Shown in pieces: positions 32,201 to 38,200 of a stretch of 64,000 nucleotides of DNA. This stretch comes from Tubulanus polymorphus (taxonomy: Eukaryota > Nemertea > Palaeonemertea > Tubulaniformes > Tubulanidae). The DNA lies in contig NC_134032.1 of the NCBI RefSeq assembly GCF_964204645.1, positions 6,693,175 to 6,757,174 on the forward strand. The letters run 5' to 3'. Positions within the stretch are counted from its first letter, which is position 1; every line of letters starts with the position of its first letter. Position numbers and translations under genes: made by a program. The notes below the pieces were generated by a model. It saw only the letters and a program-made list of their open reading frames with translations, was not told the origin of the DNA and did no database searches.

Positions 32201-35200
32201 ACAGAAAAATCTATCTACAGAACTGGAAAATTAGTTAAAAAACAGTAAGTTCTGGAACCAGTTACACAGTACATGATTCAGTTCTACATTTATGTGTTCC
32301 GATTTCACTCCAGACAAACTTTTTACCTGAGCTGTAGAACTGGACCAAGTTTAGATTTCTCTCAGAGTTCTGCGCTGTATAGATAAATATTTGATTATCA
32401 ATATCAATTGTCATCTTTCGAGGAACGAGAGAGCTATTACGAGCGTGTCGGCATCGTGTCGTGTATGTTTACCGCGAACAAAAGCACCCCATTTTTACCT
32501 TCATGACGTAGCCATGAAGGTTGTAAGATGATAGTGAGTCGATGACGTCATTTTCGTGTCGCCACTTATAACTTGTTGGTGGGAGTTCAGAGGACGATTT
32601 GTCAAACGAATAAATACTTTAATCTTATCAATGCAGAGTGTGGAATTTCGCTTTTTAAAATATTTCCATAAATTATAAGAAATGTCGATAGTAAGACCGT
32701 GGGAAAGTTTGTATCGTTGAATGGGCGAATCACGGCGGCAGAGTGCACCTGTGATAAGGCGGAAATAGCTCCATGTGAAGGCAAAACTTTTAAATGATTA
32801 GACAGTGGGAGGTGGTTTATCAACTTTTTTTCAACTATAGTGCTGCTATTTCCCCAATCAAATTGCTAGATTTCGATCGTTTCTCATAAGTAAACACTTG
32901 TAATTCAAGTGTGATTTTGATGTGCGTAGAGATACATCGTGACTAGCGTATTGAATGGCGGCGCCGTGTTTAAGCTGCGCTTCGATCGTTGAATAGTGGA
33001 ATTATAGGGTGGAATTATCTTGATTGTGTCCATACGAAGTTTATTAAAGGTTAGTGTCAACAAATGGTCCATTACAGTCCCTCTAATTTATGTGGATAGA
33101 CGCTCTGAACCGGCAAAACCGTGGTCTGTTTCGTGTTATCATTGGCCTACGCGACTGGCCTTGCTTGAGCGTTCGCTGCCGGCGCGCCGCTTCATTGAAT
33201 AAAGTATTATATAACTGATTGTTATTGAGATACAACAAGTAAACCTTTAAAGAAAGGTACCTTGTGTCTGACATTGTACTGAAAAATTCCGGATTGATTC
33301 ACCGCATATTTTTTTTCATTGTGAGCATATTAGTATATGAATCAATTAAGATGATTGACAGACGCGGGTGCAGTTGTATCAGCTGTTGAAGACGTTCAAT
33401 GTAAAAAATAATTCTAACCACGTGCGCGATAAAAACAGGGACATCAAACAAAGAAGCACTGATTTTTTTAATTGCATGTGATTTGAATAGGCATCTGTGC
33501 TGGTTTTTCAACAGCTGGTTTTTTATCATTTATACACATACGACATTTAAAAATAGGTTTTACATATTCTATTTAGAGGGCACTTGACCTTAAAGTTTAA
33601 GGTAAAATAAATCGATCTGACATTGTTCCCGCCTACCACTCTCTGCTCCAGTCTCATTTAAGTGCCCAGGGCACTAGGTGAACAGATCCGCGTAATTAAA
33701 AGAGTAGTAGAATGGACGATGTAATATGTTTTCATTGATATTATAAAAACTTGACAGAGCACGGGAATTTTGGTCCTCTGGTTATTATTTTCATTACGAG
33801 AGTTAACAAGTGTCAAACCCATTATGAAAACAAGAAAGGAATTCTAAAAATGGGCTGGCTGACATGGTTGTACTGAAAGCTTGCTTGGTGGTTTTGGATT
33901 TCTGTAGTAGAATTAATCGAACTTTGAACTGATTACTTTTTAAACAGCTAAGTGATCGGTGTTGTCGTACATCATACATGAAATGGACTGGGAATCGGAA
34001 TGGTTTTACTGTAGACGTGAGTAATAGGGGTAATAGGCTTTCATACCAAAGGTCGAAGGGTCGAGCTCGTAAAAAATGAAAATAACAATAATTTACAGTT
34101 GAATTAGTCGCGCACACTCCTAATTCAACTGTAAATTATTATTATTTTCATTTTTTTACTTGCTCGCCCCTTCAACCTTTGATATGAAAGCCCATTACCC
34201 CTATTACTCTTAAAATATTCATATATATATATATAAACATAATTTACATGAATAACATATAAATTGATAGATTATTCAATATAGAAGTGTTAGTAAAGTG
34301 TGAGTAAAAAAGTAACGAGTAATTAACGAGCTCTTTTAAATAGATATATAGATATATTTTAAACATATTTCAATATTTATATTTGTATGAGTTAGATCTT
34401 TAAACATAAAAGGTGTGAGTAAAGTGTGAGTGAAATAATTCATATATAAATCATTGAATATTTATATTTATATGCGTTAAATTCTTATTTTCAGTGTAAA
34501 AGTAACGAGTAATTAACGAGTGAAATAATTCAAATTTAAAACAGTGAATATTTATATTTATATGCGTTAAATTCTTATTTAATGTTTAAAAGTAACGAGT
34601 AATTAACGAGTTGATGAAAATATCAATTTTAATAACAAAATTACTTAATTAAGAAAAATATTTTACAATTAAAAATTTCATTCCTATTAAAGATTTGATT
34701 AAAACTGCGCGTCTTCGTTTTCATGTGAAAAATATCAAATGGTATCAAATACGTATTAATGGTATTAAATACGTATTAATGGTATTAAATACATATAATG
34801 CTTTATTTCTGAAAATGAAGTAACAGAAGTAATTTATGTTTTAATTCATTCAAGTATGATATTTTAACTTATTGTTTTTTTATTTAAATCTTTTTGATTT
34901 CTATTCACGCTATTGGTTAACAAGAATTGACTAGAATTCAAATAGACTTAACAAGAAATTCAATAACTTTAACTGTTAGTATCACTCTTGTATTATTTCA
35001 TTGTTTCTCTTATTGAATAAGCCAACTAACTAATATCACTCTTGTATTATCCTAGTCAAATGTAAAGAATTTAAAATATCATACTTGAATGAATTAAAAC
35101 ATAAATTACTTCTGTTACTTCATTTTCAGAAATAAAGCATAATATGTATTTAATACCATTAATACGTATTTAATACCATTATAATATATCTATATATCTA

Positions 35201-38200
35201 TTTAAAAGAGCTCGTTAATTACTCGTTACTTTTTTACTCACACTTTACTAACACTTTTATATTGAATAATCTATCAATTTATATGTTATTCATGTAAATT
35301 ATGTTTCTATATATATATATGAATATTTTAAGAGTAATAGGGGTAATGGGCTTTCATATCAAAGGTTGAAGGGGCGAGCGAGTAAAAAAATGAAAATAAT
35401 GATAATTTACAGTTGAATTAGGAGAGTGCGCGACTAATTCAACTGTAAATTATTGTTATTTTCATTTTTTACGAGCTCGACCCTTCGACCTTTGGTATGA
35501 AAGCCTATTACCCCTATTACTGACGTGGACCAAGTTAGTGCAAGCTTTTGGATAGTTGTTATTTGAATATTGTAGTGTCTTAACGGAATCTATCATCATG
35601 TTGATAATTGCTAGATTACTTATCGTATTGAAATGATTTTGCATAGAAACATTAACAACTCAAAGAAAATACGTGACTAACTCGAGTGACTTCAGGTGAA
35701 GAGAAGTGAACACAAAAATAGATAGGAGCCACGATTTTTCTTTTTAAAATAATTAAGACCATAAGCAAGAATAAGTTGCATTTCCTTCAATGACAATCCA
35801 CTTCGATCATCCGATTCCAAAGTTTATTGCCACCATAGACTACCGCCCCCTGGCTCTTTGGAGACAGGGAACCAGTCTTCAATTCAATTCAGTATTTATT
35901 TTACAAGATAGCGGTTTTTGCGACAGCGCAATGGCGCTGGAGCATATTAAGTCGATCGAACCATCTAGTTTAAACATTACATCTACTGGAAGTTTCAAAC
36001 GTCTGCCCTTTTGAATAATAGAATACATAGCTTTCATAGCTTTATCATAGAGAAATTTTTTTGCTTTAGCGAAACTACCGTTCCAATTGAATTTCACTCC
36101 GAGATACACATAATCCTCAACTAACTCTAACTCCTGATTACCGAACATGAATTTTGAAATACGCTTAATCCTACTTTTACTTCGAGCGAAGACTAATATT
36201 TTAGTTTTATCAACATTCACCGTGAGGCCGTTGTCGGCGCAATATTCAAATAATGTATCCAAATGTGACTGGAGAGATTCCTCATCTTCAGCAAGAATGA
36301 CTGTGTCATCCGCATAAAGGATAATGAATAAGTTAAGTAAAGTCCCTAGTTCTGGGTCACAATTCACATTAAGCTTTTCAATATACGACAAAGTTGGTTT
36401 ACCGCGCGTAGCAAAAAAGTCTTCAATATCGTTTAAGAATAAGGAAAATAGGATAGGTGATAAATTTTCACCTTGTCTTAAACCTCTATCAGCAGCAAAA
36501 TACTGTGATGTGTTTCCGTTAAATTGAACACATGATTTCACCGAATTATAGATATTTTTAACTACGTTCAAAAAATTCCCCGTAATGCTACTCTCTATCA
36601 ATTTTCTCCATAATGTAACCCGGCAAACCGAGTCGAAAGCCTTCTAAAAATCTACAAAGGCGCAAAAAAGTCTTCTTCCTTGGCATAAGTACAATTCGAC
36701 GATTGTTTTCAACGCGTAAATATGGTCAGTAGTAGAATATTTTGGTCTAAATCCGGCCTGTGCTTCACTAATTATATTGTTTGAATCGAGAAAAGTTGAC
36801 AGCCTTTGGTTAAGGATACTTGTGAATAATTTACCAAGACAGCTAACTAGTGTTATACCTCTATAATTATCAGGATTAGTGGGATCGCCTTTCTTTTTAA
36901 AAACAGGTTTAATTATCCCTATAGACCACGTCTCCGGAACATGTCCAGTCTTAAGAACTAAATTAAACAGGTTTCGTAATATATTAACTAAGCACGGATA
37001 CCGACTAAATTTTAATAACTCATTAATGATTCCATCTATACCAGGTGCCTTATTGTTCTTAAGCAATGAGATAGCTTTCATTACTTCATCAGCTGTTATG
37101 TCGCAGTTTAAAATATGGTTGTCATATACAGGAGGATCATCATTCTGTTGTTCAATATTATCGTTCCCTTCGTTTACACCATTTAAGTCATTTAATTGCA
37201 TAAAGTGTTCAAGAAAAATATCAATATCAATATTAGCGTCCTTAGTTTTTGCATAAGTTGCAGAATTAAGCATAGCCCAATACTTTTTCGGGTTATTGAC
37301 TTCACAATCTCGTAGTTCTTTAATAAAAGTTTCCTTCTGTTTTCTCTTACTTTCCCGGATGATTTTTTTATATTTCTTTGACGAGTTCTTGAAAGCATCA
37401 AAGTTAGAAGGGGTGGGGCAGCCTCTATATCTGTTTTTATTATAATTATAATCTTTACGCGCATCCCTACAGCTACGATTGAACCACTTGTTATGAACCG
37501 GGCTTCTACGTCTTCTATTTTTCCTATTGAGCACCAAGTTACATTCTTCGGCACTTAACACCAGGGAAGATACAAATCTATCAGTGAGTTCGTTTACTTT
37601 GTTTAGAGACTGACTACCTGGGTCCTGCAATCCATCCATAAGTGAATCATTGAGGCCAATGTCATATAATCTTGATTCTACTGTCGCGAAAAACTGATCT
37701 GATCTACTATTGTCCCATCTAATTGATGGCTTTCCATTTACCTGCTCATTGTTAGCATTATCAGCAATAATAGTGTCCCTAGAATTTCTGCTTAAACAAA
37801 GCCTAAGAGAGTTATGTCCATCAGACAATAGCGGTTCAAAAGGCATTATCTGAAAGTCGCAAACATATTCAAACAGGTCAATATCGCATACAAAGTAATC
37901 AATAACACTAGTTCCCTTAAAAGTATAATCACCAGACTGGTCCCCGCCACATCTGCCATTGAGTATAATTAATGAATGATTTCTTACAGAAATCAATTAA
38001 CTGATAGCCTGTGTTATTCGTTCTTTTGTCCTGATTATTTCTTACAGTCGGAATGTCTAAGCTAAATAAAAGCTGTGAATCAACAGTGGGGTGTAAATTA
38101 TCGTCTATTATCTGATTATCAGGCTCTATAAAATCTGGTATACACGAAGTGTGAGCATTAAAGTCACCCGTAATTAGTACATTAAAATCATTTTCAATCT

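Follow-up and report, generated by a model that had tools for sequence, protein, structure and literature searches.

A short palindromic element of Tubulanus polymorphus as a probable deletion derivative of gene-bearing satellites with Polinton-type ends

The stretch of DNA analyzed here (64,000 nucleotides; hereafter the window) lies on contig NC_134032.1 of the nemertean Tubulanus polymorphus (assembly GCF_964204645.1, positions 6,693,175 to 6,757,174 of the forward strand). At 34020-35521 it carries an element of 1,502 bp that is bordered on both sides by GACGTG. An original prediction, made from the sequence alone, had described it as a palindromic element with a perfect 6-bp duplication, and both the coordinates and the duplication are borne out. 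The terminus AGTAATAGGGGTAATAGG is present exactly at both outer ends and recurs at 60882 and 61130, where a Polinton-like element with a PolB-like open reading frame (ORF) extends past the window edge. Directly inside the left end follows CTTAAAATATTCATATATAT, which takes the same position inside the end at 60882. Both 189-bp ends are imperfect palindromes. The left one matches its reverse complement at 87% identity and, folded as single-stranded DNA, reaches a z-score of -17.8 against shuffled sequences. Due to this palindromic structure, the terminus recurs at the inner border, inverted and with one mismatch, and is followed there by CTTAAA. The element was said to encode nothing. It indeed holds no intact gene, as the longest ATG-initiated ORF fully within it comprises 40 amino acids, but it does retain a remnant of a gene designated ORF-A below, with an internal deletion, a stop and 67% identity across ORF-A residues 1-57. 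The features are collected in Table 1.

Table 1. Positions of the features of the 1,502-bp element and of the neighboring PolB element in the window.
Feature	Position	Strand	Basis
Left target-site duplication GACGTG	34014..34019	.	window sequence and empty sites
Left terminal palindrome, 189 bp	34020..34208	+	self-complementarity, folding
CTTAAAATATTCATATATAT motif, common to window element and PolB element	34209..34228	+	exact match
Left arm, with homologues (85-93%) at ten places in the long inverted repeats of larger satellites	34209..34738	+	genome search
ORF-A remnant	34614..34736	+	protein alignment to satellite ORF-A
Hairpin-forming segment 'mid'; core 34863-35181 95-99% identical to segments near satellite ORF-C	34739..35190	+	
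Right arm; repeats 34209-34350 in inverted orientation (98.6%)	35191..35332	-	
Right terminal palindrome, 189 bp	35333..35521	-	
Right target-site duplication GACGTG	35522..35527	.	window sequence and empty sites
Left duplication CATGTA of PolB element	60876..60881	.	terminus + CATGTA pattern also at C8:6772346-6772362, beyond window
Left terminal palindrome, 266 bp, of 18,301-bp PolB element; different end type	60882..61147	+	
5' part of PolB-like ORF, extending past window edge	61230..63998	+	

The terminus is not a chance sequence, because it matches six times within the window at up to three mismatches (mean of 0.03 in shuffled sequences) and because the genome search for further copies returned 283 exact matches (145 + 138), against none for a reversed-pattern control. 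The flanks of the window element belong to a repeat, of which the uninterrupted copies that were read hold the 6-bp site once. A query with both flanks joined over a single GACGTG gave 157 first-look candidates; in all 40 that were scored the junction is crossed, at 86-90% identity. Five of these empty sites were read at the sequence level: the flanks meet or overlap there and the site occurs once, as GACGTG in three and as GACGAG in two. The window element was inserted by a staggered 6-bp process. Identical 6-bp flanks, differing in sequence from site to site, border each of the nine elements for which both outer termini were found. These nine comprise six satellites (GACGTG, 1,502 bp; CACATA, 5,304 bp; GATAAT, 5,151 bp; TTCATC, 4,877 bp; ATTATT, 2,040 bp; TCAAAC, 2,439 bp) and three full-length elements (GGCCCA, 18,403 bp; GACATC, 24,077 bp; AGTGTT, 45,277 bp). 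The longest one (C1:14007682-14052958) contains the 24,077-bp Polinton, each having its own duplication (GACATC inside AGTGTT). For five elements with an unseen far end, this end was predicted and searched as an exact pattern of terminus and duplication. Two partners were found in the expected place, namely CATGTA, giving a length of 18,301 bp, and GCCGGG, giving 5,033 bp; the former pattern matched two further places in the genome and the latter only this one. In addition, one satellite (L054, C3:15970778-15975928, 5,151 bp) is inserted within the PolB gene of another Polinton, and when its two flanks are aligned separately to other PolB copies (72-81% identity), they share 6 bp. Duplications, empty sites and the many relatives at different sites hence confirm the predicted genuine insertion. 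That the termini would have spread through recombination or gene conversion instead is scarcely credible. The exchange of end types among interiors (see below) does require recombination at least sometimes, but the notion that termini are shared only in this way is largely refuted by the differing perfect duplications at nine elements, by the empty sites and by the insertion inside PolB. As a separate observation, a number of ends (L040, L045, L047, L049, L050, L055, L056 and L058) have no recognized outer terminus in 480 bp and look as though they had lost their outer palindrome arm.

All ten places that the left arm (34209-34738) matches adjoin an end-like palindrome. Six satellites were read whole: the window element, C10:7.63, C2:12.08 and C3:15.97 (positions in Mb) as well as C1:19.90 and C2:15.27, which were covered piece by piece. 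With PolB, integrase, ATPase and three further Polinton ORFs as queries, no match was found in these six at an E-value of 1e-3. The designation as non-autonomous is therefore upheld for the window element, and PolB and integrase are equally unmatched in the five others. Among all queries, only three small ORFs (ORF-A, ORF-B and ORF-C) are matched by the six satellites. The three largest carry an ORF-A near each end, in opposite directions, along with ORF-B, ORF-C and 24-bp minisatellites. ORF-A comprises 199-216 amino acids in intact copies, ORF-B 72 (C3:15.97 has a match of 40 residues) and ORF-C 100-101, the latter with a C2H2 motif that is invariant across 17 aligned copies. The second ORF-A of C1:19.90 is interrupted by a frame change. 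Judged by its sequence, the window element arose by deletion from this gene-bearing satellite family of 4.9-5.3 kb, because it has retained a truncated ORF-A and the hairpin segment found near ORF-C. A satellite copy of 2,439 bp has lost other parts than the window copy. With the gene-bearing family as its nearest relatives, the window element is not a simple miniature inverted-repeat transposable element (MITE) cut from the PolB element at 60882; it had been proposed as a MITE-like satellite of a Polinton-like transposon. MITEs are recognized by near-identical copies; for the non-coding window element, only the self match spans the full query and the other listed matches are partial. Within three satellites (L054, L013 and L016), the 24-bp minisatellite reads MINCLTVE. 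Further satellite copies of approximately 2.5-3.0 kb are near-perfect palindromes (L027/L031 at C6:16.82 Mb, L023 at C5:16.91 Mb and L037/L038 at C5:17.39 Mb). They are 96-99.6% self-complementary with ORF-B and ORF-C inverted on both sides, and represent either snap-back forms or assembly artefacts.

In copies selected for intact frames, the pooled in-frame ratio of nonsynonymous to synonymous differences (pN/pS) is 0.35 for ORF-C (17 copies), 0.29 for ORF-B (11 copies) and 0.45 and 0.24 for two ORF-A types (five copies each), compared to 0.75-3.1 in shifted frames. Pairwise medians range from 0.20 to 0.44, with a ratio of at least 1 in 9 of 72 pairs for ORF-B and 4 of 114 for ORF-C. On these ratios, the three small satellite ORFs are under purifying selection. 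Their function can only be guessed at: zinc-finger motifs and a weak lead towards an OB-like fold suggest that they may bind nucleic acids. One could also imagine that ORF-A or ORF-C is an unrecognized transposase and that the element is self-sufficient, having acquired its ends from Polintons. The C2H2 motif of ORF-C would suit such a role, and neither ORF-A nor ORF-B matches a Pfam family at an E-value of 0.1. We nonetheless deem this very improbable, as domain searches with the satellite ORFs returned no nuclease or DDE match and as whole ends are common, at 94-96% identity, to the satellites and to full-length Polintons that bear an integrase.

These full-length relatives measure approximately 18-24 kb and carry PolB and integrase. 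Their 6-bp duplications and inverted repeats were established by sequence for three elements and by pattern for one. For the element at 60882, the integrase match lies at C8:6766914-6767999 and contains one in-frame stop. PolB of a full-length relative (L049:5424-6905) matches PF03175 with an E-value of 1.3e-5 and 24.7 bits, just below the curated cut-off of 25.8, and the longer ORFs scanned returned only an endonuclease VII insert and zinc fingers. We take the stretch DANNLYGWAM to be PolB motif A. In L057, the integrase ORF comprises rve (5.4e-9) and Chromo (9.2e-5) domains and is followed by an A32-type ATPase ORF (Pox_A32, 5.6e-11), this being the sole element in which the ATPase was read. 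The best 49 of 3,551 first-look PolB candidates (94-100% identity to the query) and the best 113 of 2,098 integrase candidates (95-100% identity, most without stops) were listed; 31 of the 49 PolB copies point towards a listed integrase at a distance of 10.8-16.9 kb. The full-length family looks young and recently active.

The ends of satellites and full-length elements were compared over their whole length (29 ends), with terminal palindromes ranging from 122 to 410 bp. According to the original prediction, the ends of the window element are also found on the PolB element at 60882. This is correct for the 18-bp terminus and CTTAAAATATTCATATATAT, but not for the whole end, which is 82% identical over 113 bp. 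Another full-length subfamily matches the window end at 94% over 190 bp, the nearest ends being those at C3:13.21, C3:15.23 and C1:14.01, so that the element at 60882, which has a third end type of 266-269 bp, is not the closest full-length relative. Ends of 185-190 bp occur on the satellites in the window, at C1:19.90 and at C3:13.27, with best full-length matches of 94-96%. The satellites at C10:8.05 and C10:7.63 have ends of 399-403 bp that are 89-92% identical to a different full-length end; their left arm is 85-86% identical to that of the window element. The same satellite interior (that of ORF-A1) is found between ends of either type, and both types have a full-length subfamily as counterpart. 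Rolling-hairpin replication, as in parvoviruses, is recognized by terminal palindromes in both flip and flop orientations, while Polinton-type PolB copies by protein priming. In every listed end pair with at least 85% identity the direct orientation fits better (flops = 0), which speaks against rolling-hairpin replication and fits protein-primed copying.

We consider it probable that the window element is a deletion derivative of Polinton satellites, i.e., elements of approximately 1.5-5.3 kb with Polinton-type ends that are mobilized in trans. The main competitor of this reading is that satellites are plain deletion derivatives of a Polinton lineage that itself carries ORF-A, ORF-B and ORF-C, being ordinary trans-mobilized copies without an independent satellite lineage. 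The distribution of the ORFs bears on this directly. Of 375 ORF-C candidates, 150 were listed, with 68-100% identity and 114 of the 150 free of in-frame stops. Not one of the 150 has a listed integrase (n = 113; 2.2 cases would be expected with randomly shifted positions) or a listed PolB copy (n = 49) within 10 kb, and the 31 PolB-integrase cores contain none of them. Of 122 ORF-A places, one has a listed integrase nearby. Eight full-length intervals were checked as well: a single listed integrase is present in six of them, and listed ORF-A or ORF-C copies in none.

Several results weigh against the satellite reading. At L067 (C4:11181950-11183400), near a listed integrase, ORF-A stands in frame behind an N-terminal zinc-finger piece of PolB, and an endonuclease-VII-like ORF follows this joint. 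ORF-A, joined to a PolB piece here, has thus moved at least once between Polintons and satellites, in one direction or the other. Of 37 satellite-side loci scanned, four contain matches to Polinton genes: L045 has a neighboring Polinton with an unlisted integrase approximately 7 kb from ORF-C; L025 has, just beyond the satellite end, an ORF that is found elsewhere beside the integrase; L032 (1139-1339; C8:5.56 Mb; element borders unseen) has a 67-residue N-terminal piece of PolB, 87% identical, approximately 0.6 kb from ORF-C; and L026 has a weak match of 40%. The separation from integrase is therefore valid for the listed ORF-C copies only, and pieces of PolB do adjoin satellite ORFs. Furthermore, three of the satellite end types lack a close whole-end counterpart among the full-length ends compared: the ends of 342-345 bp are 71-74% identical to these, those of 404-406 bp 62-64% and those of 122 bp 60%. 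The outer 150-160 bp of the 342-345-bp ends match the type at 60882 at 91-94%. Finally, no copy lacking the duplication was seen among the nine complete elements, but three of the five predicted partners were absent by exact pattern, by which a mutated or lost terminus is indistinguishable from a missing duplication, and five further intervals have no recognized outer terminus on one or both sides. The joint at L067 and the PolB piece at L032 in particular favor plain deletion derivatives of a Polinton lineage. So does the fact that the window element and the satellite of 2,439 bp are themselves deletion derivatives, and another lineage beyond the best 113 of 2,098 integrases and 49 of 3,551 PolB copies could carry the ORFs. 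Yet, the complete absence of listed ORF-C copies near listed integrase or PolB, the wide identity range of these copies, most of them stop-free, and the in-frame purifying selection on them make this alternative rather unlikely.

Satellites with Polinton-type ends could plausibly be mobilized by Polinton enzymes. As the termini match, Polinton integrase would insert the satellites in trans, and PolB would copy the linear satellite DNA from its termini, likewise in trans; occasional recombination with helpers would swap satellite ends. In a further-reaching interpretation, a gene-bearing satellite lineage parasitizes Polintons, retains genes under selection, adapts its ends to helper subfamilies and inserts even into helper PolB. 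We regard the odds of this scenario as evenly balanced. ORF-C candidates number in the hundreds in this one genome. Polintons are considered intermediate between transposons and viruses. If the scenario is true, satellite ends matched to helpers would form a natural assay of recognition by Polinton integrase and polymerase, and the biology of helpers and satellites would be extended to the chromosomes of an animal host.

Elsewhere in the window, pieces of a non-LTR retrotransposon (35879-39020), with endonuclease and reverse transcriptase matches, directly adjoin the element. A dinucleotide microsatellite of approximately 1.1 kb (12.2-13.3 kb) is a source of long spurious ORFs. A GIY-YIG ORF at 43323-43859 presumably belongs to a Penelope-like element.

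No description of non-autonomous Polintons was recognized in searches of open-licence full texts, with Repbase, subscription papers and supplements outside this scope, and excerpts of PMC9341512, PMC12910113, PMC12368964 and PMC12220804 contain nothing on them. Abundant Maverick/Polintons are described in part of PMC6035795 for a braconid and another wasp. In vertebrate Mavericks, as far as the consulted sections of PMC8097293 go, the ends carry (AGT)2//(ACT)2 motifs and perfect 6-bp duplications. The elements described here share with Polinton/Mavericks the AGT...ACT termini, inverted repeats and 6-bp duplications, and have full-length relatives with PolB, an integrase of rve and chromo type and, in L057, an A32-type ATPase. 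In contrast, the satellites measure 1.5-5.3 kb and lack PolB and integrase while carrying ORF-A, ORF-B and ORF-C. They also have terminal palindromes of 122-410 bp, and the stem 'palindrom' is absent from the main text of PMC8097293. Like MITEs and other non-autonomous DNA transposons, they are short, lack a transposase and have their ends in common with an autonomous family; unlike MITEs, the larger members retain conserved genes and a Polinton presumably serves as helper. Transpovirons are linear plasmids with six to eight genes that are associated with Mimiviridae (excerpts of PMC3671162 and PMC11071308). Together with virophages, they resemble the present satellites as small DNA elements that have genes of their own and rely on a larger DNA-virus helper; here, however, the helper would be a Polinton residing in a chromosome, and its ends are common to both partners. 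Phage satellites such as P4 likewise bear their own genes and exploit a helper.

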